From assembly GCF_000189635.1 (NCBI RefSeq), contig NW_002476355.1:390557-454556 (forward strand): a stretch of DNA of 64,000 bases, in the 5' to 3' direction. Position numbers and translations under genes: made by a program. Under the pieces are notes generated by a model. That model made no database searches and was not told where the DNA came from. It saw nothing but the letters and a program-made list of their open reading frames with translations. Source of the DNA: Tetrahymena thermophila SB210 (lineage: Eukaryota; Ciliophora; Oligohymenophorea; Hymenostomatida; Tetrahymenidae). This document shows positions 6,357-63,448 of the stretch, one piece after another. The stretch's first letter is position 1. Each line of letters begins with the position of its first letter.

Positions 6357-9300
6357 TCAGACGAAGTTGTATCTGAATCTCCATGATTTGATTTCTGTGA
6401 AATTTTAACAGATGTAGATAAAATTCTATAGTGCTCTCAAGTGAGATGCTTTATCTTTCATTCTGCCTTGCATGATCCAATTATGCGCTTTGTTTTGGAG
6501 AAAATGCAAGAACAACTTCCTGTATCCAACAATGAAAACAAACTCTTTTAGGAGAGCTCTGTTAAACTTTTTGTTTTTAAAGAATTACTTGAGAATATTT
6601 TTATATTCATTAAGCTCAGAGGCATCATTTATGCCTAACAACTCCATAATTTGTTACTCCTCTTCTTCTGATTAGACAAAAGTCAAAAATTAATTTAAAA
6701 AGTTTTTAACAAGATTTTTTGTATCAAACTTGCTCTTAGACTGACTGCCATCAGAGCATTTTGCAAATTATTCAGCAGAGCCAGCGCTGCTTTCGTCATC
6801 GATTTAATCATCATGATTTTCGTCTGTATTTTTACTTGATTTTCTTTTTTATTTGGTTTAAATTGCACTTTCATCATCGTCATCATAGAAAACTTATTCA
6901 ATATTTTAAGTTAGTTTATTCTTCTTTTTCAAAGCTGCTTTTTTCTAAGCCTTTGATTGAATTTAATATTATTATTGCTGTTGTAACTATTATTAATCGA
7001 ATTATTTTTATTATAAATCTTCTTCGTTCACAGAAAAGGAACTTTAGTTAGAATTTTGTTTGGAAAGGACAGCAGGATACAATGGCTGTGTAGTTTGCGA
7101 GCACATTGTGCCACTTCTTGATATGCCACCAACTTGAGCAAGGTACTGCTCATATTTTTCTGGCATAATAATTTCTGCCAAATGCGTAGTTTTAGGAGAG
7201 GGAGCAGGCCCTCCATAAATTATTTTTGAGTTTTTCACTTTTTTTTAATTTTTTTCAATTTTATTTTTAATTTTTGTATTAATTAAATTATTTTGCATTT
7301 GTTGTTGTGAATAAGATTATTCACTCAGTTCGCTTGAATGTTATTTATCTTCAGCATGTCCTTCTTATTATGAACATTCTTCGTTTTAAAGTTAATTCTC
7401 AAAAATTTAGTCACAGTCTCTCGATGATGATGGTAGTTACTAACGGTCTTCAAGAAGTTGCTGTTGCAAGGACTGCTTTTACTTTCTTTCCATAATTCTT
7501 TTTGATCTGTGTCTTAAATTAAGTTTATCAAATTTTTCCTTTGATTTAAATTCCTTAGCAATAGAATTTTGTTGTATTGAAGGTGAATTTTACTTTTCCT
7601 TTTTATTATTTATTTGCGAACTATTGATTATAATTTATTTTTTATCTTTTAAATTATTCGTATTACTGTTATTATTGTTGTTGTTATTGTTGATTATTTT
7701 TCCTTAATCAAAACTTTATTCTGAAATTAATTAATTTAAATATTCTTCTAATGATTGCTTGTTTTATTATAAACATTAGTTGTTAACTTTTAAATTACTA
7801 AGTACTTCATCTAATTCATTTTAGGCATTTTCCTAATCCAGTTTCGAAATAACACTCGACTACTAACTTGATTTTTCAGGCTACAAACTTGCGATTACAT
7901 TATGATTAAACGATGCAATTTGATTTATCAGCTAAATAGACTGCATAATATTATCTTCGTTTGTTTAAATTTAATTATTTTCTTTATTCTTTATATCACT
8001 AATTATACTTTATGGAGATCCTAAAGGTGATTCTTCCAAAATTTGCTCATCAGACTAATTTTTTTATTGTGCTTCTACGCTACTGCTTAAACCTAATATT
8101 TGACTTAAACATATTATATTTTTAAGTTAGCTATCCTATTCTTACATATTTAATTACTATTATGATTTATTGATTTATTTAAAAAATTTTTTTTTTTTTT
8201 GAATAAGATCTGTTTAGGTGTTTTGAATATTATTGATTATTATTTAATCCCCAAATTTGATAATAAATTATCTTTATTTATCACACTATATATTAGGGTT
8301 AGATAAGCTATTTGCGTTATCAATCAAGCATTCATATTATTTTGAATTAGATTTTTATTCTTATTAAGCTTTCACTTATTCTTCTTACTTTGAGTCTACT
8401 TTTCTTAGACACTAGATTGGAATTTTAGAGACTGCTTTGTCTTTGATTATGCTTGAATTCTAAATTTCAATTTCAGATATAATGTGCTCATTCCATTAAA
8501 TTTAATTGTTCACTTTTATTTGCTTATTTAATTCTTCTATTTCTTCTTCACTTTCATCGTACTTTTCTTCTTCTTCCAAGCGAAGCGCCCTTAAGTCGAT
8601 CACTTAAATTTACTGCTTGTGATTTGAAGATATAGCTTTATATTTTACCTGTAAAGCGGTTTAGTCTTTATAAGCCCAAGGATTTGATTAGTTTGTTAAA
8701 ACTTCTACTGCGCAATTGTTATTAGGTGATATTTTTTTATATTTGCAAATATCACTTATTTTTCTCTTTTTAATGTTATTTTTGGTCTATTAAAAGAGCT
8801 ACTTCTTTGATTTATCAGGAGTGGAGTAAATAAACGCATCTTAAAATTTATTTTATTAAGGAAGAGTGTCTTGAGAATCTTTGAGAGTTACTGCATTTTG
8901 GTTCTAATTTTAAAGTATTTAAGTAGAAGAAAATTTACTCTACTTTTTATCACTTGCTATTTGATTATTATTATTAATCAAAGAATCAGATTACTTAAGC
9001 TAAATTAAGAGAGATTTATTGAGACTGATTGTTTCTCTTATCTGAATACCTCTTTTCTATTGATAATAAAAAGATTTAGTATCTTACAAAATAAATTTGT
9101 TTCAATTACAAATATTGAAACTCTTTATTTTTATAAATTTTTTAATTAAACACAAATTATTTAAGCTAAATTCACAAATTCTTTGATTTCATTTTCATAT
9201 TTCTTTCTTTATTAATTTATTGTTAATTATCTTGTTTGTTTGTTTGTTTGTTTGTTTGTTTGTGTGTTTGTTTTTTTGATAGTCGGTTGGTTCTTTTTAA

Positions 9301-25757: not shown

Positions 25758-28700
25758 ATGTCGAAATAAACAGAGAAATAAATCTAAAATTAATCTTTAA
25801 ACTCTGCAACCAGTGGGTAGATAGATGAGGGAAAAAAATCTGATTTTAATTTTAAACATGAAAGTAGCTATAGTTCAAACGAGAGTAAATAACTTTATTT
25901 ATTTCAAAGTAGAAGTTTTATGAATAAGCTAAAAAGTGCAAATAAACATAATATAATTAATAATCATGATTAGGCAATTATTAGCTTTCATTTTCTTATT
26001 TATTTATATTTATAAACTATCAATTTAAGTATACTAAAAATTATTTTTCTGAATGAATTTTTATCAGTCAAAAAACGAACAAAATAAACCTTTTTCTATA
26101 TTTTTATCTTCCATAATTTATAAAAAAAATATATTTTTAATATCAAAAGAAGATTTAAAATAACTCTTGGAAATATCAGATATTTTGAATAAAAAGAAAT
26201 AGCCTAGAAGTAATAAATGGGAATTAGTAAACTCTGTTATGAACAATTTGAAAGATGACTCTGATAAATATTTAAATTAGCGCTTTATTGTTTTGGAAGA
26301 AAATTGTTCTTAAAATTTTTTTAAAGATAAAACAGTTTCAAAGGGATCTAAAAGCTAAAATAATTCCTCAGCTGATTAATTAAGCAATTTATCTGACAAA
26401 ACAATTTAAAAAGCAAATTTTGCTTAATCTAAAAATGACAGTAGCTTAGGAAATACATTTTAAAGTTAAGAAGAATCAAATTACATTACTATTCACAAAA
26501 AATCTTCAAAAGGATCAAATCAGAGCAATAAAATATAGGAAGAAATTAAATCTAATAAACTAGCAAGTAATTAAATAATATAAGCTCAATCAAGTCAAGA
26601 AGTTTCTGCAAATGCAAACTCAAAAGATTATTCTGTAGTATAAAAAGTAAATTCAGAATCCTATGAAATTGAACAAAAACTTAGTACTTAATCAATTGGC
26701 AAAATTACTTCGTCTTCTTAGTCTGATGGAAAGGACTATACTTAAGAATATTCAATATCTTCTAAATCAAATAGTTTATCTTTATCATCTAAAGAATAAT
26801 ATAATTCTTCCAATCAATCAGATACAATATCTTCCAAATAATCATATACTTCTTCAAATAAATCGTATACTTCTTCAAATCAATCATAGACTTCTTCTTA
26901 TCCATCATAAACTAATTCCAAGGAATAAAATGCTTTATCTAAAGATTCTTGCAACTCTTCAAACGAATCAAAATATTAACCAAAAGATTCATTCACTTCT
27001 TCAAACGAATCAAATAATTAATCAAAAGAATAATTTAATTCTTCTTAATAAATGCTTAGTTAGCCAAAGGAATCATTCACTTAGACATCAATAAAACATT
27101 AAAAAAAAATTAATTAATATTAAAATTAAGAAAAGCTAGCACAAAATATGCAAGATGACTTGACAAAAATTGATATTGAAGAAGACAGTGAAAATTTTGA
27201 TGAAGTCATAAATGATTAAAATATTGATATTTTAAAAGAAGATACTTATATGAAAATTGATTAAGTTATAACAATAGATAGGAATAAGGCATATTTGGCA
27301 ATTAGCAAGAGTATTATGAAGTTTAACGAGTATTTAAATCAAAATAAACTTAGAATGCTGTCGAAATAGACTAAAATCAATTAGGTAGATTAATTAGAAG
27401 AGGCAATTGAAAATTTAAAGTAATCCGAATAAAATCATTACAATAAATAATTAATTCAATAAATAAGCGATGAGTTGAAGAAAAAATTTATTGAAGAGGA
27501 TTTAAAAGATGAAGAAATAATAATTAAAAACAAATTTCTTATTGAGTAAATAAAAAATTAAGTAAAATGTACTAACAAGAAGTACATAGAAAGAATCTTT
27601 GTTGCAATATATAGACGAAGATACAAAATAACTAAATATCTTACATCTGGAGGACAAGCAGACATTCTTATTGGAACATATTTAGATGATACAAATTAAG
27701 AAAAGGAATACGTGTTAAGAATAGTTTCTTCAGATTAAGATACTTACGATTACATAAGGGAAGAATTTGAGCTTGTTAACAAATTTTAAAAAGCATCAAA
27801 TATTATCAAATATTATGATTCAATCTATTTAGAAGATATATACACTGGGGTTTTTATTGTAGAAAAATGCTCTGGAAGTCTTACAGATACACTTAGAAGC
27901 AAAAGAAATAACAATGTTAATTTCACTGAGTAAGAAATATTCAAAATAGTTTTTGATTTAGTGTAAGGATTGGTAGAAATGAGATCATATAATATACTTC
28001 ATTAGGATATTAAACCAGATAATATTTTAATCAATCGAAAAGGAAATTATATATATTCTGATTTTGGTTGTTCTAGTAAGTTCTTAGACGGTCTTGCAGA
28101 GAATAAGGGTTTCACGATGAAATACTGTGCTCCTGAGCAGTTGATTGAGGAATACTTTACAAACTATAAAGCAGACATATATTAATTGGGTAGAACTATT
28201 TAACAGGTATTAGAGCTATATGAGAAGTTTAGAGGAGTATAAACAAAATTCATAAAGGACCTAAATAATATTATATTTTGTAATATGTTACAGGATTAAC
28301 AAGATAATAGAAAAGAATGTGTGGATATTTTAATTCTTTTATCTGATTCAATAGTAGAATCGCAACAAAAAAGCTACGCAGATAAATTTATTGTGTGGAT
28401 TGAAGAGCAAACAAATAAATAGCAGATTATTTAAGAAAGAGAAACTAACTTCAGCTTAAAATCTTTGATCACATTTCATTTTATTTGGTTTTAATTAAAG
28501 CTTTTTTAAGGAGGATATCAGCTCCTTATTTAAAAAAAATCAGAATAACAGCTTTTAAATGAAATAATTGAAAAAATTTACACTGATTTTTCTGCACTCA
28601 AAAATACTCAAGGAAATATTTAATTTTCATAGCATTTAACTTCTCTTTTAGAAATTTTATACAGCTTGGTAGAAGTCTTCAATTAATAAAATAATTGTGA

Positions 28701-30540
28701 GACTGTTTACAAAATCGCTAGCTTTTTAATGAAGATATCGGAAGAAATAGATCATCAAAATGAAGAACTGTTTGAAAATGCAATTAGATATTTATAATAA
28801 TAGATGTTTAAAAAAGTAGATTTTTCTAAGTATTTAGATTAAATTGAAGATAGAGCAGAATCTTAGAATAATTGTTAACTATACACTTTTTTAGCCTATG
28901 AATATTTTCATAATGATATAAGTAAATCCTTTTACTACTCTTTGAAAGTCCATGCTTAGAATTATTAAAAATATGTTGAATATAGTTAAACTTAAAACCT
29001 AAATAAAAGTGATTTTTTCACACTTGGCTATTATTATTTATAATCATTGTTCTTTATTACTCAAATATTTACTGAAATAAACTTGGATTCAATTGTTATA
29101 AATCATATCTAATTTATAAGAACAATATCTAATAATTTAAAATTAGGAAAATTATTTGAACGATAGTGGGCTAATTTGGGATTATCCTTTTATAATATGA
29201 AATAATACAAGAAAGCTTTGGTATTTTTTCAAGAAGATATCAAACAATAATCTTCAGAAAATCGTAATTAAAGTTTTAATTTTGCTTACTCTAAGTTCAA
29301 AATTGCTTGTTGCTATTTCGAATTAGGATAGTTTGAATCAGCAGAAAAGGAATTCTTAGAGCTTGAGGAATTTTTTGAAAAGCAACTTAAAAATAACTAA
29401 TACTTTTACACTTGTTTTATAAAAATAAAAACTTTTTCATATTTAGGTGTTAATTTTGATAATAAAGGTTAATTTAAATAATCTATAATTTACCACTCAA
29501 AGGCTCTTTAAGAATTAGAAAATCTAAATAATAAAAAACATACACTCTATCAGGCTTTTTACCCATACTGTTTGTTTAAGCTTGGTATGTGCTATTGCTA
29601 GCCTGACACTTATGATTAAAGTCAATCAATAATCTACTTTACTAAATTTTTAGAAACTACGAAAGAAAAAGACTTATGTGAATTAGATATAGATTAAAGA
29701 TAGGCAGTAATAGTTTCCTTAAATGGTTTGGCTTATTTTTACTTTATATCAAACAAATTCTAGGAAAGTGAGTTATATTATACATAACTTATAAGGGTAT
29801 TTATATAATTTAGTGATTATGGAAATTAAATTTTCGAAATAGGCATTAATAATTTGATGACAACGATGATTCAATTAGATTAAACTGAAAATAATTTTTA
29901 TCTTAAATTTATAGACTTAGTAATTGAAGTCGTTTAAGGTAAAAAAATTACAGATGATTAATAAAAAAATAATATAATAGAAGATATATAAACAGCCTTT
30001 TAATATAGTAAGGAGTTAGAATAAGAGGATATGTTTTTAAAAAATAACCAATTAATCTCTCTTTTAGAGCATTTTAATTTAAAAGAAGAAATTTATATAA
30101 CAATACTAAACTACCAAGCTTAAGTTTTGTTTGAAAGTGCATAATATGATCAAGCTATTATTTTTTATGAAAAATCCCTTCCTACTATGATAAATATTTA
30201 CAGTCATCCAAACGAATTTGTAGCAATTGTTTAAAGCGGTTTAGGTATGGCTTATCACTAAATTAGATAATTTTAGGTTGCCATCAACTATTACAACTCT
30301 GCTTTAAAAACCATGAAGGATTTAGACTATTATGAAAACGAAGAAACACATTAAGACATGATAGATTGCATTGACAGAATTTTAATCTGCTTTCAAGGAT
30401 TTGGAAATACACCTTTAGCCCTTGAATTTTATTAAAATTTTGAAGATATAATGCCATTTTTATATGAATAATCTCATCCCTCAATAATTAAGTTCAATTC
30501 TTAATATGAAACTTGCAAGAAAAAATTAAATTCTTTATGA
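25758..30540 (+). CDS. Divergent protein kinase fused to TPR-like repeats
   Basis: ATG at 25758 opens a short exon (about 43 codons, donor GTAAATAAC). An intron of about 260 bases follows, then one long exon to TGA at 30538-30540, for about 1,500 residues. Order: Ser/Asn/Gln-rich disordered region with degenerate repeats near 26800-27060; an acidic helical linker; a kinase domain at roughly residues 530-800 (27600-28430); then several hundred residues of TPR-like helical pairs, for example ACCYFELGQFESAEKEFLEL, GLAYFYFISNKFQESELYY and GLGMAYHQIRQFQVAINYY. The kinase fold shows a weak loop (GGQADILIG), VLRI where VAIK is expected (Lys replaced by Arg), HQDIKPDNIL for HRD..N, SDFG, and CAPEQ for APE. 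Catalytic Asp, Asn and DFG remain, so activity is uncertain rather than excluded. Kinase-TPR fusions resemble signalling scaffolds. The next two genes on the same strand are LRR and NACHT proteins. Confidence 0.87.
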
Positions 30541-35148: not shown

Positions 35149-35775
35149 ATTTATCTTTTATGATTTATAAATTACTTGTGTAATAAATAAATAAATAACT
35201 ATGATGTTTTTTTATACTGAGTTAGTTAATTCATGTGTAAATATATTTATATATACCTTATCTTAGATTTATTTTTTAATTTTAATTTGAATTTAATAAG
35301 AGTATATAAAAAGTACTTTAAATCAAAAAGTTAAAATTTTTTTAAATATTGTTAAAATAATTTATTTATGAACTAAATTTAATGAAATGAATAAAATTTT
35401 TAATAAAAATTTAATTATGAACTAAATAAATTTAATTAAAAGAATAAAATTATTTTTAATTTTTTATTTGAATTATTATATTATTTTTTTTAATAAAAAA
35501 TTAAAATGCTTAGTAAATGACTTAATCGAGTAAAACAGTGCTTTTGAGCAAATTAGATGATCAAATTATAATAATAACTAAATCAGATTAAATTTTAAGA
35601 AAATATTCTTATTACAAATAATTAAAAAATATATGCATCATTTATAAAAAACTAATTAAATTTAAAAATTAGTAAGAATATTTAATAACAAACAAATATT
35701 ATAAAAATATAATTAGAATATAAATAATCTAAAGAAAAAAGGAGATTAGCTTAAATTAAAGTTTATTTATAATTA
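35149..35775. other. Intergenic spacer before the NACHT gene
   Basis: Extremely AT-rich, with two similar segments around 35370-35460 built on ATGAACTAAAT and a flanking TTTAAT. No exon. Holds the promoter of the NACHT gene. Confidence 0.4.
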
Positions 35776-38700
35776 ATGAATAACAAAGAAGTAAAAATTC
35801 AAAAAGATTCACAAATATAAAAATAAATATGCTAATAGAACTTTGCAACTAAACAGGAGAAAAGTTTTTTAAAATCTGAAATGTATGAAAAAAGAATAAG
35901 CATGTTCGATTATGATGAAAATAAGGTAATTTAAAAAGAGGAATTCTCAAATCCTTTGAAATAAATACCTTATTTAGAAAATGCTATACCATGCTTACAA
36001 GAAAATTTTTTAAAAAGTTCTTAAAAAGAGTTATAATCCCTTTATTTTAGCTTGGAAGATGCTATATTTGATGACAATTCTCATCATAAGTCAGGATATC
36101 TTGACTAGTTTAGAACTCAAAATTAATATTATACAGTTGATGATATTTTTTGTATGCTTGAGCAAAGTTATTAATGCAAGATACTCATACAAGGCTAAGC
36201 AGGAGCTGGTAAAACAACACTAATATAATACATTGCGCATTAATGGAGCCAAAAAAATATACTTAGTGACAGGTTTAGTGAAATTTATTTCATATCCCTT
36301 AAAACTCTTTTGAATTAAACATGGGCTGAACAGTATATAATTGATTAAAAATATTCTAAGGAGTTTTAAATAAATCCTCTCAAATTTCTTATCCATACAA
36401 ATGTTTCTTTAATGATTAATAATTAAGGTCAATAGAAATAAATACAACCTGAAGATATCAAGCTGTACAATGATAAAATTTTACTTTTGATAGATGGTTT
36501 TAATGAGATTACTTCTGTTTAAGAAGATCATATAGTTTGCTTGATTTTGAAGTAAATATTTGATTAACAGAATATCATTTTGACTTCAAGGACCAACACA
36601 CTTTCAATTTACTGGAAAAATAAATTTGATATAATTTTAGAGAATATCGGTTTTAATAAGCTTTAAATACATTAATACATTGAAAACCACATAGATTAAT
36701 AAATACTTTAAGCTTAACTATACAAAATAATCATAGAAAATAAACAATTGTACAAAATATCTTAGATACCTGCTAACTTGGCAATGCTTTGCTAAATAGT
36801 CTCTTTAATTAAAGATAATTTATAATCTTTAAAAATAGATGGATTATATTAGCTCTATAGACTATTTTTCCAAATGTTATTTGAAAAATTAGATTAATGT
36901 TTAAAAAATTAATCATAAAATGAATAAAAGCTATCTCAAATCGATTTAATTCGGCAGTTGGCGTATTCATGCTAAACAGAATAAATTTTAGAAATTGAAA
37001 GTCAAATTGATAAAGATGACGCAATTACAATAAATCATAATGAAAATGAGCAAAATGAGAGTTATTTAATTAAAAATTTAGATCAATTTGTTAATTTTGG
37101 ATTAATTAAATAAGTCTTTTATGATAAAAAAGTATATCGCTTTACTCATTTGCTGTTTTAAGAATTTTTAGCGGCTGAATATCTTGTAGAAAAACTCTAG
37201 AGTGGAAATAAGTAAAAAAAAAAAAATGTTATTAGTTATATTTCTCAGCACAGAAATGAAGAGAGAATGCGGCAAGTTCTAAAATTTATGAGTTAAATTA
37301 TTATAAATCTGGGAAATTAATCAATTTTAGACGAATTTTGGTATTCAATGAGTTGCAATATAGAAGGAATGCTTGAGTTCGATATTATCTAAAAAGTTAA
37401 GCTGTTGATGCAATTGATTGGAAATATAAATAACTCATCAGAAAACGAAATTAGAATTATCGATAGTACGATTCCTAACATAAACTAAATTAAAATTTTT
37501 ATTGATTTGATTGTTTTATTCAACTTGAATGAATTCAAATATGAACTAATGCATTCAGGTTATAAAAGCCAAATAATATCTTCGAAAATATAGTCTCTGC
37601 TTGAGGGATTTGATAACACCTCAGATTTGTTAAGAGAAATTAAAATTTAGATAATAAATTATAATTTTGCAATAGACGTTGATTCTGTCGAAAGATATTA
37701 TAATAGTTAAAAAGATATTTAATGCTGTATAAATTTTAATTAAAAAAGTTAATCAAAAAAGGATTAAAAAATATAAAATTAGAATGACTAATAAGAAGAA
37801 TAATTCAAGTGTATTCAACAAGTTGATTAATTTTTAAAGGTTAATTAATCACATGAAGCATAGAATGATAAGTTTGTCTAAGAAATGATAAATAAGTCAT
37901 TAGGCTTAAATATGGCTAATTTTTATTCCTATATTGATCAGAATATTTTAGAGTAAAGTATCTTAGATATACTAAACAAAAAGGAGACAGAGACTTATAC
38001 AAAAAGTATTGCATTAAAAATAATTATAAAATAATTACAAAATTAGTTTGATTTTAACAATAAATATTATTAAAAAATATTTGATTGGATTATTGAAACA
38101 GAAATAAGTTATTAAAGTAATTTACAAAAAATTACTAAATCTAAAAGAAACTCTGATGAATTTAAGAATACTCAAGACAGAAATGTTGAATCAGAAGATA
38201 TGAATTAGCAAGCAGACTGCTTTTATTGCTAAAATTATGAATTAATTATGAGATAAAATGAAGAAGTTTTACATGAATAAATGATTTTAATTCTTAAATA
38301 TTTAAATAGCTTCAATTTAAGTAGCTTCTATCAATGCTTGAATAGCATGACAAAGTATTTGCTTCATTACTAAAAAAATTTACTTCCTTTAGCCTTTGAG
38401 ATAATTATTTAAGCAAGGTAACTTAACAGTCAAAATTATATCCACATAAAACAAGGCTAGGCAACTCTGCATGAACTGGTAAAAATAGTTGCTAATCACG
38501 TATTAGATTTTCCAAATTTTTTGCAAATTTGGAGAACTTTTACAGATGAAATGAAGAATATCCTTTTAGATAATTTGGAATGCAGTCAATGTCTAAAAAA
38601 AGAAGCTAAAGAATACCCAAATTATATAAACTTAATTATTTAGTATGCAAACAATTAAACCCATAGAGATTAGTTAATTTATAAGTTTTACAAATTAAAT

Positions 38701-41700
38701 TGCCAAACAATTAAAACACCATTCCTAATGGAACTACTGACAAATATTTCTGACTAATAATTAAAAGAACAAATCCTCATCGCTTAGACAGATATTTTAA
38801 TTAAAAAATAATAATAACAATTTAACTGCGAGCTATTTACCGATATAATCTAATTGATTAAATAATATGGAAACCATCAGGTTTAAATTCAACATCTTGA
38901 ATAGCTAATAACATATTATTTTAGCTTATTAAATGTCTTTCCTAGGTATTTTTAAAGCGATATTATAAAATAAATTTAAAAAATACCTTCGATAGAAGAA
39001 ATCAAACATAATTTATTATTTTCTTTTATTCAATTTATGAAAAATCATACAAATTTAGAATATCAAAAAACTGATTAGACAGATGTTTATTAAATACTAG
39101 AAAATAACGCTGAAAACTTAATAAGCTATTTAGACTCTCTCTTTCACTAAGATGGAAGGTTCCATTACTTTTCTCTAGATCTCTTTATATAAATTCTTTT
39201 AATATAAAATTCTAAAAACTTAGTCAATTCTTTGAAATTTCTCCTGAAAAATTTTTTCTCATACTATTTTGATTAAGAATAAAAAATAATTTAAAATCGT
39301 CACGATGAAATATTCTAGATAATTAGTAGCATTTCGTTACCTTATTCTCTTTTGATCCAAACCATAGATTTCTTCATACCTCTTTTCAAAATAGATAAAT
39401 ACTTTGAATTTTAGAAGCGCTTTGTTTTAAATTCTTCCTTTGAAGACTAACAAAATTCATGTCAAATACTTGAAAACTTGATCATTAAAAAATATCAAAG
39501 TGAAAAAGAAACACTTAGTGATTCAATAAAAGAATAATTAATCGATGATATTGTTTTAATAAAGTTAAAGAAAGATCAAATAACTTATCTTAAGAATAAA
39601 ATATTTTCTTTTATTGATGGGGAAATAAAAAACCTATGTTAAAATTAGCTTTCTAACGATTAAATAACCAAGAATGTTCATGTAATTATAAATTATATTA
39701 GCATATTTTAAAGGTCAAAAGTGAGTTAATTTGATCCTCAATAAATAATATTGCTCTTTAATCATTTACTTGATTTGCCTTTTAATTTGAAGTTATTTGA
39801 TTTAATTTTCAACTATATTGATGAAATTATTTAAAACATTGAAGATGTTTCACTTAAGATTTACATATCAAATGAATTATTTTAGCATCTTTATAAAGTA
39901 GACCCTCAAACTTTATAAAAATTGAGTATTTTGTAGTATAGCAAATTAAGATATGCTGATTGTCAATGCTTTTAATAGGAAATCATATAAAAATGTGCAA
40001 GTGATATAGGAAAATGGAGCTCTTTACAAAATAGATAATTTTAATACTCATTAATGGATTTGATAAAAGCTTCCAATAAAATTTAAAACTTATTTATCAA
40101 AAATAATATTTAAAAAAAGATAATCAACTCAATTAAAACTGAAGAAAAAAATTTTTTACTACAGAATGTTCAATCTGATCCCACATTTTGTGTTTAACTA
40201 AAGATGAAAATATATTCTGAATTAGCTAAAATGAGTTAAATATTTTCAAATATGCAACAATAAGCGTCTGATTTGTGCAAAGATTTATAAGGATTAATAA
40301 AAGATATTATGAATAAATCTAAATAAGATGTAAATATATTTATTAAGATAGAAACTGATTACATATATTCTTTGCTTATAAGCTGCCACAGCCAATAAAC
40401 ATTTTAACTCATTGCTGAGCACCTAGTATCATCAATCGATCTTATTAGCAAAAATGAAAAATTAAAAAGTAAAATCATCGAAAAATGCAACCTTTAAATT
40501 GACTGCATAAATAATAAAATGTTTCAAGAAATGATAATAAAATAAACAGTGGAATTATTAATAAATGTTGTCAATTAAAATGAATGTAAATTTGAAAAGA
40601 TTAAATTTCATATTGCAGAGATTATAATTCTAATTAAAAAACATCAACATTTTTAAAGTATTCCTTCATTAATAATTTAATTCATAAACTGTCTCTTAAA
40701 ACATTAAGATTAGGAAGCAATTTAATATATTATTTCTGTTTAAGACTTTTGTCTGCTATAACTAATACCAGAAAACGAAGCGTTAGAAATTAGAGAAAAT
40801 GTTTAAAAACTATTTCAGAGTATTTTGAAAGAAGTAATATAAAAAGAGTGGAGAATTCAAATTGAATATCACAAGTAAATGTGCTCTCTTCAAATTCCTT
40901 TTTTATCATAAATTTCATTTGATTTGCTTGTTCTAAAAACAGAACTGGATTATAAATACCGTTTAAAAGCATTTCAATGGATTGTAAGTAGAAATAATAA
41001 CATAAAATATTATTTTGACTAGGTTTTAACAGAAACATCAGCTGAATTTATATTCAAATTTTTTGACCATTTTTATGAATATGTAAGTGAAACAAACAAG
41101 GTTTTTGTTTTGATAGAACTAATTGAAAAGTATTAAAGTCACTTTACTAATCAGCAAAGCTTAATTTCTTAATTTAACACATAGCTTAAAAAAATGAAAT
41201 ACTAGAATAAATTTTACAGATTTAAGTTAAATTTAAAAGATCTTGAAATTCAAGGCTAAAATTTTGTGAGTCAATTAAAAAGCTTATTAAATGAAGAGTT
41301 TTCCACATAAAAACAGATAGAAATAGGATTGATACTAATTTAGTACCTGAAATAAGATCACATTGATTTAGTAAAGGAATGCAAAGTACTCTTAAAAAAT
41401 ATAGCCTTGCATTTAAATGAAGCATAAAAAAGTTGGATTCTTCAAAATTTTAATTATCTTTAACACCTTTCAAGCTACTCAAAACATTTTATTAGTCTAA
41501 TTACTCCTGTGCTATTATCAAAAGAAGATTTTCATTCCAATTAAAATGATATCCTTTATGAACCAATTGTTAAAGATTTCTAAGGATTATCAAAAATCCT
41601 CTGCAACAGTGAAAATTACTACTTAGATAATAAAGGAAACATATTTATTGATAATATTAAATTTAAAATTAACAATTTTTATGTATAAAAGTTAAAAATA

Positions 41701-43245
41701 GATAGAAAAATTTTAAAGATTTTAAGCTAGAAAAAAAATTTTTTTACTTAACAATACATTAACTACACTCCACTTTTTTAGAATATGAGTTAGCTTTAGA
41801 AATCATCTCTAGACAAACAAAAATATTCAATTATTGCCAATAAGAGAATTTTAGAAATTTAAAATAAGGAATAAATTATGATTGATTCACATTGGAATTT
41901 AGTAGAGCTTGTTGATTATTATGGAGATACTATTTGCTTCTTTGAAAAAAGAGATGCCTTTGGTAAAAGAATAATTATCAAAATAAATTAAGAAACTGAA
42001 GAAAATATGATAAAATTTGATGTTATCTTCAATAATTTCAAATAAAGAATATTTGGAGATTAAGAAAAATCTATGCTTTACATAGGTAGTATATATACTA
42101 ATCCATTCAATTAAAATGACTTAAGAAGAATTTAGTTAAATAAAACACAAATAAAATAGAGAGATGTTGCCGACTTCAAGCATGTAAATTGTGCAATCTG
42201 CTCATAAGTTAGTTTATAAGAAAACAAGTCAAAGACATATCAATTTGATGGATATTTAATAATAAAACCTTTATATTTGATTAAAAGTACTCAAATAAAG
42301 TTGTGTAATTGCCTAGTTAATTGGGATGATATCCAAAATAATAATACAACTTAAAATTGTTATTAATAGTTTTAATTCTTTAAGAGAATATATGCTTATC
42401 ACAACTCTTTCGAAATATATTAATAGATAACCACTAATTAGGAAACTAGTCATTCTGCTATTAAAAGTATTTTATTTTATTAACAAACAGAGTCTCAGAA
42501 ATAGTATGAATAGCTTCTAATTGATAATGTCCAATTACATTTTCCAAATGATGAAAAAATGCAATCATCATTCGTTTAGTATTTTAGAGGATTTGTTAAA
42601 ACTTTTACTACTAGCTATCTCTAAGCTGTAAGAATTGCTAATAAGAATATTTAGATCGATAACAACATTGATGATATTTCAATAATTTTGATAGTTATCT
42701 CAATTACTCCTTTAGTTCTTCATGAAAACCTTAAAAAATATTAAACAATAAATGGACTTTTAAGCGATGAATAAATTATTCAAAATTCATAAAATTTTAC
42801 GAAATTTCTTTCTGATAGTCTATATTTAAGTTCAAGAGCATGCAGATTAGCTTTATCAATAATCCTAAAATATTAAAATTAGCTATTTACAAATGAACCT
42901 ATTGGTATATTCAAGAAAAATTTAGATAGTAATAACATAAAAAAACATTAATCAAGCAACTCCAAATAGTAACCAGCAATAAAACTAAAAGAAAAAATAT
43001 ATAAAATAATATCATCAATAGATTAATGTGATATTAAAATAGATACTTAACTTATAAATACTTTGTTTAGAGGAGAAAAGGAAATTTTAGGAAGTAATCA
43101 TGCTTGTTAATTCATTTAGTTAATGCTCAAAAATTAATATGAAAATAACAATTACTTGAAAATGATGTAAATTTTAGATATTGAATTCTTAGGTTAGAAT
43201 TTAAATAAACTCAATTAATCACTCTTCAAAAACAGATTGTTTTGA
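35776..43245 (+). CDS. Giant NACHT-type STAND NTPase, single exon
   Basis: One uninterrupted code-6 frame from ATG at 35776 to TGA at 43243-43245: 2,490 codons, 2,489 residues, no intron needed. The NTPase module sits near the N-terminus. Walker A is ILIQGQAGAGKTT (residues about 136-148), where the second Gln is a TAA codon. The NACHT-style Walker B is ILLLIDGFNEI (about residue 235; D-x-x-x-x-E spacing), and sensor 1 is NIILTSRTN (about residue 265). A LTHLLFQEFLAAEYL-like segment (FTHLLFQEFLAAEYLVEKL, about residue 456) is typical of the helical region following NACHT. The remaining ~2,000 residues are helical and low in recognisable motifs, with a more globular C-terminus (for example HWNLVELVDYYGDTICFF; HVNCAICSQ). 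No LRR, WD or ankyrin repeats seen. STAND NTPases are switch proteins that oligomerise on sensing a ligand; the role here is unknown. Confidence 0.88.
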
Positions 43246-55445: not shown

Positions 55446-56167
55446 TTCATTATAAAGTGCAGATAATCAATCAACTATTAAGCAAATAAATAAATAGTGC
55501 TTGCTTTATTTTATCATTCTTTGTATAAAAAACTTAGCTATTTTTAAGGGAATTTTTAAAGGCTGTTAAACTATGTATGGCAGTCAATTTACTATTGTAT
55601 ATTTTTTTATAAAACAATTTATCTAACTTAAAATGAAAATTAATAAAATAGATTTATTATGCAAATACAATACAAATTATTTTATAGAAAATCTTTTTAA
55701 AAAAAAGCATTTTAGTCATTGAAAAAGTTTTATTTGAATTATTTTCATTAATCAAATTCCAAAGATAATTCTAAATTAAACATTTTATTAAATGAAAATT
55801 AATTAATTAAAATAATTTTTTTTGAGAAATTTTTATCCATTTTTGATTTAAAAGAATTATTGTGTCTTTTTAAGTAAATTCTAATCAATAATATGTAGAA
55901 TTTGCCAACTTACTAATTGAATAAATTTTGAATTACTTAAGAATATCTATCAAAAATTAAATAAAAATTCTGCCAAAATAATTTTCAATTTCAAAATTTG
56001 AGATTTGTTTGTTTGCTTGTTTATATTCAGTAATTGTTAATTTATATTTTGCTTTTCAGCTAATATTTCGAATTAATATAGCATATTTAGAAGCAAGCTA
56101 ATTGAAAGTAGGTGATAACGCATATACAAATTATTGAGTTAATTCTTCGACTTTACAGTTGCTTTTG
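55446..56167. other. Intergenic spacer
   Basis: AT-rich; contains the 3' region of the 182-residue gene and the promoter of the CENP-C candidate. No exon recognised. Confidence 0.5.
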
Positions 56168-59100
56168 ATGAATAGGTCAAACAGTAGAATTAAGCAACAA
56201 AAAAAGTCCACTAATAGCCAAAGCAGGAACAATAGTCGCTAAATTCTTGAAAAGTCTAAAACATAAACTAGGAATATCAAGATTGATAAATAAGATAAAT
56301 TAATTGTAAATGCTAAAAAAGGAGTTAACGTTGGCAAGTATTTTAAATTGAAAATATTATTAAGTTTTATTTATTTTTTAAATGGTTATAGGAGAACTGG
56401 ATAGCAGATAAAGAAGAAAGAAACAGGTTTAAATTACGATGGAACTGAAAGGTTGAGTGATTATTTCGCTCAATAGGATGGACTATCAATTGATAGCGAT
56501 TAAAATGAAATTGTCTCAGATAATTTTGAATAACAAAAGGGGGACTTAAAAGTTAGTAGCATCAGTGATTTATAAGATGATTCTTAAATTATTTAGCTCT
56601 TCAATAATAAGAGAGATAGTCTTGAATTCAATCTTAGTCCAGAATAAAGTCTTTATGATAGAAAGAGTATTGATGGCAATTAATAATCTAAAAAATTACG
56701 TAACTAACAAAACTAAATCTAAGCTGAAAATAACAATTTGTTTGAAACGAGTAAAAAAAATGTTAACAAGTCAGACCGTAGGAAGGAATCTAGTTTAGGG
56801 TTAAAATCTTTTACAAGTAATTTACTTGAAATCCCTTCCACGAACAATCGAAAAACAAGCTCTTTTCGTCTCTAAAGGTCTTAGAATTCAAAGTATAGAA
56901 ATTCTATAGCACTTTCTTCAATACCTAAAATAAGTAGATTTAGTGGGAGAATTAATGATAATGGCAGTGATGTAAGCTCAGACAGGTTAGATGATTTCGA
57001 ATTACTTGGATAACTCTCTAATTTACCTCCAGAATTAGTAGCTAAGAGTATATAGCAAGGTACCTCGTTGGATGATACACCTTTTACTAAAAATATTGAA
57101 GACTTCGAAATCACTCTCTCAGAGAGTGAAATCAGTCAATAAAATTAATAAAGCAACTCAATATTTAGAGATGATAGAAGAAAATCTGAAAATTAGAACA
57201 ATAGATAAAAGAATTTTAATGAATAAAATATTGGTTTAGATGATGAAGAGGAAGAAGAAGAAGAGATATAGCAACTACTGAAATAAAACAAACAAATAAT
57301 AAGCTAAATATCACAAAGAAAGAAAATGAATAATTCTAATAGTTTTAATAGCTATTTGCTAGACATAAGTGAATCAAAGATTTACAATAAAAGTGATAAA
57401 AAAAGTAATAATGTTTATGATTTTGGTAAAATAAGTCCAATCCAAGAAATCAACACATAACAATCGAATAAAAATGAAGACTCGTTTAGAAAAAATAAAA
57501 ATGAAATGGCAAATAAATCTTTAGACAACTTTATGGAAATTGTTAATCCTAATAAATAAAATTTAAATGAAAAAAAATAAATGTAATCAGAGTAATATAA
57601 CGAAGTTCGAGGTTAGTAAAATGAAAATGAAGATTTTATTTTATCTAAAAATGTTCCAAATAAAAATAATTAGAAATAGGAGAATTAATAAAATCTTAAA
57701 ATGCTAAAGCCAAACCAAATGTTAGATGAAAAAGAAGAAATTAATTAAAATTTTTAATATAAAAAAAACTAAAGAAATAATAAAAAAAAATAACTACAAG
57801 AAACTCAGGATATGAGTGTAGAAGATCAAGTAGATATTTAAATTTAAGCAAAAAATAAGTAATAAAAGATTAAATAGCTTAAAAAAAATAGAGTGAGCTT
57901 AGATTCTAGTGATATTTCTTTGTAGATAAAAGAACAAAGTGATAGTGCAAATTAAAGTAAAAACTTAGAAACTAATGAGGAATTATAAAAAAAACTACTC
58001 ATAGATCAATACATTAAATAAAAAAGGGGTTCAACTGACTTTCAATTCTCAAATCAACAAGAAAATAATCAAAAAAGAATTTCTGGATTTAATAATTAGT
58101 AAAAAATTACCTTAAACTAATAAGAAAATCAGCTTAATTAAAATGAGAATAATGATTTAAAATAATTAGAAAAAAATGAAATTACCTAAAATGTTTAAAA
58201 TACAAAGTTAAAAAATGCTAATTTAGAATAAAATAAAAATAATTAAGAAAAAAATAATTCAAATTAAAATGAAATTAATGTAAATTAAAGAGAGAAAAAT
58301 TCAAATTAAAAAGAAAAAAATTCAGATTTATTAGACAACTGTATAGTTTAATAGGTTAATAACGAAAACATAAATGTAGAAAATAAACTTTCTCTTCCTC
58401 CTACTATGAAAGTTGACTCAGATCAAAAATAAAATTATGAATATGATTTGAATTCTCATAGCTATAATGTTGATAATGATCTTAATATGGAAGTAATGTA
58501 AAATTAGAGTTATTTTGAATAATAAGGAAGTCATTTATAGATAGTTGAGTAAGAAATTAGTTTTGAGAAAAATAAATAATCATCCTAAAATAAGAAAATG
58601 GATGTAGAAAATGAGGGAGTTATTGATTAATTTAATTTACCTGAAGAAAATTTAATCCGTCGTAAAGCAGGAAGGCCAAAAAGAAAACGAATAACTCCTT
58701 AAAAACTTAGAAATAATTCTTAATCAGCTCAGGAATCAGATGTTGAAACCGAAGTAAGCAATGACAGTATTTAAGGAAAATAAAATAATAAAAAGTAAAA
58801 GAAAAAATCTCAAAATAACTCATAAGTGAGCTCTGTCAGTTCTCAAACATCAACTTCTAAGTAGCTTAAAAAAATAATCAGGAAATAATCTTAAAAGAAT
58901 AATTCTAAGTAGATATTATAACAGTATGAAGATTTTTATGCAAAAGGGTTCTAAAATAAAATTGAAGTTGAAGTTAAAGCAGAAACTTCATCTTTTGGGA
59001 AAGATGGAAGATATCCGGTTAGAAATAGAATAAGGCCACTTGTTAGTTGGAGAGAAAGGGCTGTGTATGGAAAAGAAGGTTTACTTTATATTATCACGGA

Positions 59101-60153
59101 TTAAAGCTTAGAAAAACTTGATTATGTTAACTATACTGTACCTGGTTTTTCAGATGTACGTGAACCAAGACTCCACAAAAAAAACAATAAAAAAGCTATT
59201 AATAAAAATACAAGCTAGTCATACAAAAGCCTTGATTAAATTAAAGAAGAAGAAGCTGATGACACAGAAATGCTCAAAAATACTGAATCTTAAAAATATG
59301 AAAAAAATGAGAAAGAATCAGCAGGTACTAAAAAGCTTTCTAATAGAAACTCAAATTTTTCAAGTGATAAAAGAATAAAATCTAAAAGTTAATAAAGGAA
59401 ATCTCTAGAAAGAGGTCGAAGTGAAGACGACGATGATGATGATGATGAAATACCATCATAGAAGAAAAATTAAAAAAATAAAAACACTAAAAATCACTAA
59501 AACAATATACCAGAAAAATCAAAATCGTAATCACCACTATCAAAAGCACAACTAAAATCTCCTTTGGATTAAAAAAATTAAAATTTTAAGGATAAAAAAA
59601 ATTAACCACGATAGAGATCAAGTGAGTCTTCTGTAGACAATAATGATTCCAAATTGCAAAAGTAAGATTAAAAGAATAAACAATAAACCCAAAGAAAAGA
59701 AAAACATGTTGAAGAAAAATTTAATAAAAGAGATTAAGTTGATTTAGATTTTATTTAAAATCTTTTTAGTTTAGAGAAAATAAGTTAATATAATATAAAA
59801 ATATTTGAATCCTCCACTAATATTCTAAAGTTTAGTCTGGCTTTAAACCCAGGCTTAGAGATACAGTGCTAGAAAACTAAATATGCAATTGTAATTAATT
59901 ATATTATTTTAAATAAAAAATATTTATTTTAAAATTAAATAATTAGGAAGTCAAAGTTATAGAATGTTCATGGAAAAAGCTGTTAATCTGTATAGAAGAT
60001 TCAACTAATTATTTGAAACAGGATGACAAAAAGCTAATTAAGAAGGACTAATACTTTTCCCTAAAATACAAAGAGAAAGAAAATAGTAAAAATTGTTAAT
60101 TATTAATAACTATCTTTAAAAATTAATTAAATTCTAAATCCTCCAAGTCTTGA
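56168..60153 (+). CDS. Candidate CENP-C (inner kinetochore protein)
   Basis: Three exons: 56168-56337, 56392-59890 and 59947-60153. Phases are checked and total 1,292 codons, giving 1,291 residues; in-frame TAA/TAG are read as Gln. Most of the protein is Gln/Asn/Lys/Ser-rich and disordered. At residues about 813-823 is an AT-hook (RRKAGRPKRKR). At about 930 is RYPVRNRIRPLVSW followed by RERAVYG. This aligns exactly with the CENP-C motif R-R-S-x-R-x(4)-P-x-x-Y/F-W: R1, R5, P10 and W14 are kept; R2, S3 and Y13 are replaced. CENP-C uses this motif to bind CENP-A nucleosomes. The last ~120 residues look like the C-terminal cupin dimerisation fold: a strand FSLALNPGLEIQCQKTKYAI, then VKVIECSWKKLLICIED, then a LIKKDQYFSLKY hairpin and LLITIF. 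The order (disorder, motif, cupin-like end) is that of CENP-C. The remaining doubt is that motif and cupin were judged by eye. Confidence 0.75.
58658..58690 (+). other. AT-hook within the CENP-C candidate
   Basis: Encodes RRKAGRPKRKR. The G-R-P core flanked by basic residues is the classic minor-groove AT-hook, which suits binding to very AT-rich ciliate DNA. Confidence 0.75.
59009..59050 (+). other. CENP-C signature motif
   Basis: Encodes 14 residues, R-Y-P-V-R-N-R-I-R-P-L-V-S-W, with the spacing of the family motif. The first Arg, the fifth-position Arg, Pro at 10 and Trp at 14 are the expected anchor residues. Confidence 0.7.
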
Positions 60154-60246
60154 TTGATTGATTAATTAATTAATTGATTGATTGAATAACCAACTAATCA
60201 ATTCATTTCCTAATGTCTCATTAAAATTAAAAAAAATTTCATTATT

Positions 60247-60274
60247 TACCTACCTACCTACCTACCTACCTACC
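60247..60274. repeat. TACC tetranucleotide microsatellite
   Basis: Seven perfect tandem TACC units between the CENP-C candidate and SLX9. Confidence 0.9.
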
Positions 60275-60599
60275 ATCTTTTCAAGTCAAATATTTATAAA
60301 TAAATAAATTTCAAAAACATATTTTTAATAATTTATAACTATAGTTTTTTCCAACAAAAACTACTAAACCAACTAATAAATATATAATTAATTAATCAAT
60401 ATTGAGTATTTAACAAAACAAACACCTAAATAATTAATTATTAAAATATATTACTAAATAATAAAGCTTATTAAAATTGTGTTTATAAATTACTTTTAAA
60501 ATAAAATAATTAATTTTCCTTATTTTTATTAATGATGCTAATAAACTAACTAATAAATGCTAGTAAAACTATAATATTAGGTAAAATATAGTAAATATA

Positions 60600-62554: not shown

Positions 62555-63448
62555 ATGTTAAGGATAGCACTTTTAATAATAACAATAGGGTAAGTACTTT
62601 CCGATTCATGTGTCTATGATGTAGCTAACTTCATTGACATTTATCAAATACTTAAGACAAAATAAATGATTGGTTTATCTTAATATTCAAATAACCAATC
62701 CTAAACAGTTATGAGAATACTTTAAAATCCAAATCAAAACCCACAAACACCTCCTCCAAATCTATATGATAATTATAGAGTCAGCAATTTATTTGTTCCT
62801 CTTCAAGTAATAGACATGACTTCTTTACTAACAAGTAATCCTTAGTCTTTATTTACAATCGATTTGATCAAAAATTGGGAGAAAAATTTTGGAAAAATAC
62901 CATCTGATTCAATTATTTTTGTTCGTACTAACTAAAATACCAAAGTCTTTAATGGATGGGAAACCGATGCCTTAGACTTCATGTTTAATAGTAGAAATGT
63001 AATTGGTATTGGGCACGATTAATAGTTAGATAATATTCCTGAAAATCAATTGCAATACTTTTATAATAAATTATATATCTCCAATGCAGCTTCTTTGACA
63101 TAAAATAATGAGTATTCAAACCTTGTTTAAATTAGAAAACTAAGTGTAACTAAGGATGGCTGGTTCGTAGATATTTAATCAATAATACCTTAAAATGTGT
63201 GTTCTACTCCAAAAAGACTTGTAAACCAGTGGTGGTCTGTAATTATCATTTTAGTTATTCTCCTACTGATTATTTACTTGATCTACTACTGTTGTCTCAA
63301 AAGATTTGATAAATATAACAAAGAAGATTTCAAGCCTTTAGATTGGGAAAAAAGAAACTAAGATGGCATCTATTTTAATTAAGAAGAACTTCATGTTCCT
63401 TTATAAGAAATGCATGAAAGCTAGTAATAATAACAAAAGCAATAATGA
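62555..63448 (+). CDS. Membrane-anchored protein with degenerate cyclase-like ectodomain
   Basis: Single frame, ATG at 62555 to TGA at 63446-63448 (298 codons, frame checked). It starts with a signal peptide (MLRIALLIITIGQVLS). The ectodomain resembles the bacterial-type cyclase/kynurenine formamidase fold: LFVPLQVIDMTSLL (family: V-G-P-A-V-V-I-D-V-S), then TIDLIKNWEKNFGKIPSDSI plus IFVRT (family: L-T-x-E-D-L-x-A-W-E-x-x-H-G-x-I-P-x-G-D-x-V-L-L-R-T), then RNVIGIG (family: V-x-x-I-G-I-D) and an ISNAASL strand. The N-terminal H-x-G-T-H-x-D metal-binding motif of active enzymes is missing; no histidine appears before the VIDM strand. It is therefore probably a pseudoenzyme or binding domain. A strong membrane helix follows (WWSVIIILVILLLIIYLIYY), then a short cytoplasmic tail ending in a Gln run. 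This is the last gene before the telomere. Confidence 0.82.

Follow-up and report, generated by a model that had tools for sequence, protein, structure and literature searches.

A candidate gene for a divergent CENP-C in Tetrahymena thermophila

The window analysed here is a 64,000-nucleotide stretch of Tetrahymena thermophila SB210 DNA (contig NW_002476355.1), in which an original prediction, made from the sequence, had placed a candidate gene for CENP-C, the protein that links centromeres to the machinery moving the chromosomes, at 56168..60153. These coordinates proved exact: once two predicted introns are removed, the frame in the ciliate code (code 6) is open throughout, encodes 1291 residues and ends on a stop codon at 60151-60153. 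Sequence comparison suggests that the gene probably encodes a divergent CENP-C orthologue of T. thermophila, a member of a known family. No single test proves this identity. A putative CENP-C motif is followed by a cupin-like extreme C-terminus in CENP-C order, an AT hook is also present, all in one apparently single gene, and the genome searches made gave no better CENP-C candidate. The features of the locus, all on the forward strand, are as follows.

56168..60153: whole gene, join(56168..56337, 56392..59890, 59947..60153)
56318..56467: N-terminal island, about residues 51-82, GKRTGQQIKKKETGLNYDGTERLSDYF, spanning intron 1, Mif2-like by eye
56338..56391: predicted intron 1, 54 nt, GT..AG, 48/54 bases A+T
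56777..57127: island of residues 186-302, ordinary in composition, to which no likeness was assigned
58658..58690: AT hook RRKAGRPKRKR, residues 813-823, from sequence
59009..59068: putative CENP-C motif RYPVRNRIRPLVSWRERAVY, residues 930-949, from sequence and profile comparison
59792..60150: C-terminal cupin-like domain and tail, residues 1191-1291, spliced across intron 2, with weak profile and alignment likeness
59891..59946: predicted intron 2, 56 nt, GT..AG, 54/56 bases A+T

Most of the protein is rich in N, K, Q and S, and few islands have an ordinary composition. Defined as windows where the share of N, K, Q, S, D and E drops to half or below, the five main islands cover about residues 30-98, 186-302, 789-845, 897-1001 and 1173-1254, with a short extra one at 702-732. 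The CENP-C-like features sit in four of these five, the exception being residues 186-302, which could be a ciliate-specific partner site. The AT hook claimed in the original prediction is present.

The motif core RYPVRNRIRPLVSW (residues 930-943) has R1, R5, P10 and W14 at the exact spacing of the family, which bears out the 14-residue motif first proposed. Its residues read R930-YPV-R934-NRIR-PL-VS-W943-R-ERAVY. The vertebrate CENP-C consensus is RxxRxxxxPLxYWxGERxxY, with the core RxxxxPxxYW (PMC4830207), and R1, R5, P10, L11, W14 and ERxxY are conserved in the candidate. No other site in the protein combines R-x4-P with an aromatic residue at +8 or Trp at +9; besides W943 the protein has a single further tryptophan. 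A profile built from the CENP-C motifs of four PDB chains was scored, with the composition correction of HMMER off, on pieces of equal length taken from shuffled sequences and from the open reading frames (ORFs) of the window and 42 other loci. Since 39 of these loci had been fetched by DNA patterns, 18 of them by the correct motif pattern, this ORF background is biased against the CENP-C claim. The 60-residue motif stretch scored 8.4 bits, equalled by 11/5000 shuffles, 1/6033 ORF pieces and none of 38 pieces from elsewhere in the candidate; the single ORF piece that outscored it belongs to L034, a locus fetched by DNA pattern. For a 105-residue stretch, the score was reached in 8/5000 shuffles, 2/2226 ORF pieces and 0/19 other pieces of the protein. 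The motif stretch is within the top 0.02% of background pieces. A phmmer search of the PDB with the motif island returned one chance match only (Endoplasmin, E 0.94), and the 189 residues surrounding the motif are encoded by a single copy in the genome.

At the other end of the candidate, 247 residues beyond the motif, the C-terminal island aligns over its full length with the human CENP-C cupin at 19% identity. Against a profile built from four CENP-C cupins in the PDB, the score of the last 130 residues was reached by 29/5000 shuffles and 1/477 ORF pieces, and with a larger background by 17/5000 and 4/1362, respectively. About 0.3% of background pieces thus score as high as the C-terminus, which suggests a weak likeness to the cupin. 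A PDB phmmer search with the C-terminus gave no match, and an AlphaFold2 prediction of exon 3 alone, which holds part of the domain, was poor (predicted local distance difference test score 55.5). A hydrophobic-moment test was dropped: known cupins themselves were not separated from shuffles by it.

The N-terminal island resembles, by eye, the Mtw1-binding start of fungal Mif2. For a hand-picked stretch, the scores with the Saccharomyces cerevisiae and Kluyveromyces lactis sequences were reached by 6 and 9 of 1000 shuffles, the K. lactis alignment being out of register. By profile the likeness was not significant (274/5000 shuffles and 52/6033 pieces; 410/5000 and 56/3867 in a second test), and Pfam Mif2_N had no match in the candidate protein. 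A Mif2-like N-terminus is a lead only.

Rival candidates were sought in the 101.0-Mb assembly (445 contigs). The DNA form of R5-x4-P-[LF]-x2-W-[RS] matched 19 times, against 14 for the backwards pattern, and two of the 19 carry Arg at R1 as well as at R5, namely the candidate gene, in an open frame of 831 residues, and L023, in a frame of 54. The core R-x4-P-x2-Y-W had 66 matches, against 61 backwards. Among the 46 opened (in the remaining 20, the match starts with a codon for Ser in place of R5), 29 had Arg at R5 and a stop-free core, and in two of these, whose frames run to 23 and 30 residues, R1 is Arg as well. Cores with Phe, Trp, Cys or Leu preceding Trp matched 145 times, against 160 backwards; among the 100 listed, four CENP-C-like cores were opened and none had Arg at R1. 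Among the matches opened, the full motif pattern occurred in no further long frame, the Phe/Trp-Trp pattern having been followed in part. Searches of the genome for the families CENP-C_C, SANTA, Mif2_N and Mis12, matched exon by exon, gave no match; no control genome passed the cut-off, the SANTA and Mif2_N controls being blind, and the absence of these families is therefore not shown. The collections viral_contigs and genome_contigs contained no relatives of the candidate that we could find.

Several results weigh against a CENP-C at this locus. Lysine, asparagine, glutamine and serine make up 628 of the 1291 residues, which fits a chance likeness. In the motif, position 13 is Ser instead of the usual aromatic residue (Tyr), and one residue is missing ahead of ERxxY; at the C-terminus, none of the 12 invariant cupin columns is kept. 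When the entire protein was searched with the composition correction applied, the cupin, motif and N-terminal profiles gave 2.3, 0.0 and 0.3 bits, several short ORFs of the window outscored the candidate, and the best site of the N-terminal profile was residue 1251, away from the N-terminus. The profile search by which the original prediction could be checked found no Pfam match over the cut-off anywhere in the protein, neither in a scan of four pieces (one of which had five sub-threshold matches, the best being FMN_bind at E 0.078, whose 14.1 bits fall short of the cut-off of 22) nor in a scan of all exon 2 (residues 58-1223), which reported no family at E 10; the positive controls of the scan matched. 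Backwards control patterns match about as frequently as the motif cores, so that the core by itself is no rarity across 101 Mb. The prediction stands in part: the motif, the AT hook and some likeness to a CENP-C cupin (human identity, profile rank) lie where they had been placed, whereas the missing invariants, the non-aromatic position 13 and the lack of a Pfam match speak against it. Because no cupin invariant is kept, we slightly lowered our confidence in orthology and raised that in coincidence. That the CENP-C features arose by chance in a K/N/Q/S-rich protein, as its composition, the control patterns and the lack of a curated profile match would allow, is nonetheless unlikely: the motif and the C-terminus rank high among background pieces, the one lies upstream of the other as in CENP-C, and the matches opened include no further long frame in which R1 and R5 are kept.

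The gene model itself could be wrong, intron 2 being left unspliced, so that the protein stops at 60016 and its cupin-like end is an artefact of the join. Both introns were inferred from their GT..AG ends and A+T content; retention of intron 1 would leave the frame intact, whereas intron 2 splits the C-terminal domain, whose halves are joined only by its removal. The unspliced ciliate-code frame (56138-60016) has 1292 open codons, and the codon-usage scores of the three forward exon 3 frames lie close together (-0.036, -0.104 and -0.061), a comparison of little power. Of the six frames of exon 3, the spliced one nevertheless ranks first, read-through of 59891-60013, a stretch that includes the intron, scores -0.302 in its own frame, and the end of the spliced frame aligns with the last strands of the human cupin; together with the splice-like ends and the base composition of the intron, this makes an unspliced intron 2 improbable. 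We consider it very improbable that the protein is instead a CENP-A deposition factor of the KNL2/M18BP1 type. Such factors may carry a CENP-C-like motif, as reported for M18BP1 of non-mammalian vertebrates (PMC4830207) and, as CENPC-k, for plant KNL2 (PMC11879092). A Pfam SANTA match was found neither in the whole protein, scanned in pieces, nor in the genome, where the control was blind, and the C-terminal island resembles a CENP-C cupin, a domain that KNL2 is not known to have.

A divergent CENP-C would have partners in this genome, and an organism with CENP-A should have one such protein. In other species, the hydrophobic tail of CENP-A is what the CENP-C motif reads. The corresponding histone gene of T. 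thermophila is the following.

L082 991-1668 (G000:C65), reverse strand: CNA1 (CENP-A), a histone gene with the hydrophobic tail RIRGQKNVTGIFIPTKK

It contains exactly the first 18 of the 19 letters of the published Cna1 peptide (PMC7725606), and its tail, ending in VTGIFIPTKK, would be a testable partner for the candidate motif. A telomerase reverse transcriptase fragment from this genome, 102 of whose 103 letters were taken from locus L044, is identical to PDB chain 2r4g_A, a T. thermophila sequence; together with the Cna1 match, this points to T. thermophila or a very close relative. NDC80 is also encoded (PF03801, E 2.8e-12); a second, sub-threshold NDC80-like match (L043, G000:C91:1827610-1827765, E 0.017) is perhaps a paralogue or chance. 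From CENP-C biology, we would expect the arginine-rich motif to bind the centromeric nucleosomes of dividing micronuclei, R934 anchoring on the nucleosome acidic patch and W943 packing against the CNA1 tail, while the AT hook and the long basic disordered stretches would hold AT-rich DNA and the N-terminal part would form the bridge to MIS12/NDC80 in the outer kinetochore. The cupin-like domain may dimerize the protein. A broader scheme is conceivable, although we rather doubt it: ciliates would keep a full classical CENP-C, with a MIS12-type N-terminus, a motif re-tuned to the CNA1 tail and a degenerate cupin dimer, and the germline nucleus alone would run a conventional CENP-A - CENP-C - NDC80 chain, the macronucleus dividing without it.

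A 2022 review gives CENP-A and Ndc80 as the only kinetochore components identified so far in T. thermophila (PMC9252888), and the species is named among those with few predicted kinetochore proteins (PMC5579357). None of the titles and abstract openings listed in the literature searches describes a ciliate CENP-C, and an earlier identification may exist. If correct, the orthologue would supply the missing link of this kinetochore, serve as bait for the rest of the ciliate kinetochore, and may mark the nucleus with centromeres apart from the nucleus without.

Simple repeats of TTGA/TTAA and TACC units (60151-60275) directly follow the stop codon of the candidate gene. Elsewhere in the window, a 2562-residue frame (35557-43245, forward) has a NACHT domain (Pfam 6.4e-14), a 1495-residue frame (26053-30540, forward) TPR repeats downstream of a protein kinase domain, a frame at 6357-8147 (reverse) DUF4441 (2e-19) and a 297-residue frame (62555-63448, forward) a putative cyclase domain (Pfam 3e-08); six other frames (317-804 residues) among the ten scanned had no Pfam match at 0.001.

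Compared with known systems, the candidate shares with CENP-C/Mif2/Cnp3 of vertebrates, budding yeast and fission yeast an Arg-rich motif with R1, R5, P10, L11 and W14, ERxxY in its vertebrate form, a cupin-like extreme C-terminus and a long dissimilar remainder. Mif2 likewise has an AT hook (GRPRGRP), whereas that of the candidate precedes the motif instead of following it. The candidate further differs in its spacing between motif and cupin, in the departures within the motif and cupin described above, and in lacking a Pfam match. KNL2/M18BP1 can have a CENP-C-like motif, as the candidate does, but has a SANTA domain, none of which was found in the candidate; KNL2/M18BP1 is not known to have a cupin. 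The CENP-C of Plasmodium, also an alveolate, was recognised by its motif and a C-terminal dimerization domain in an otherwise long and dissimilar protein (PMC4295259); with 50 and 46% similarity to yeast and human, this domain is far closer to them than the C-terminus of the candidate. The cupin of Drosophila CENP-C (6o2k), proven by crystal structure (PMC7110144), is also too divergent to stand out with the profile used here (E 0.69), although at 13.3 bits it scores above the candidate.
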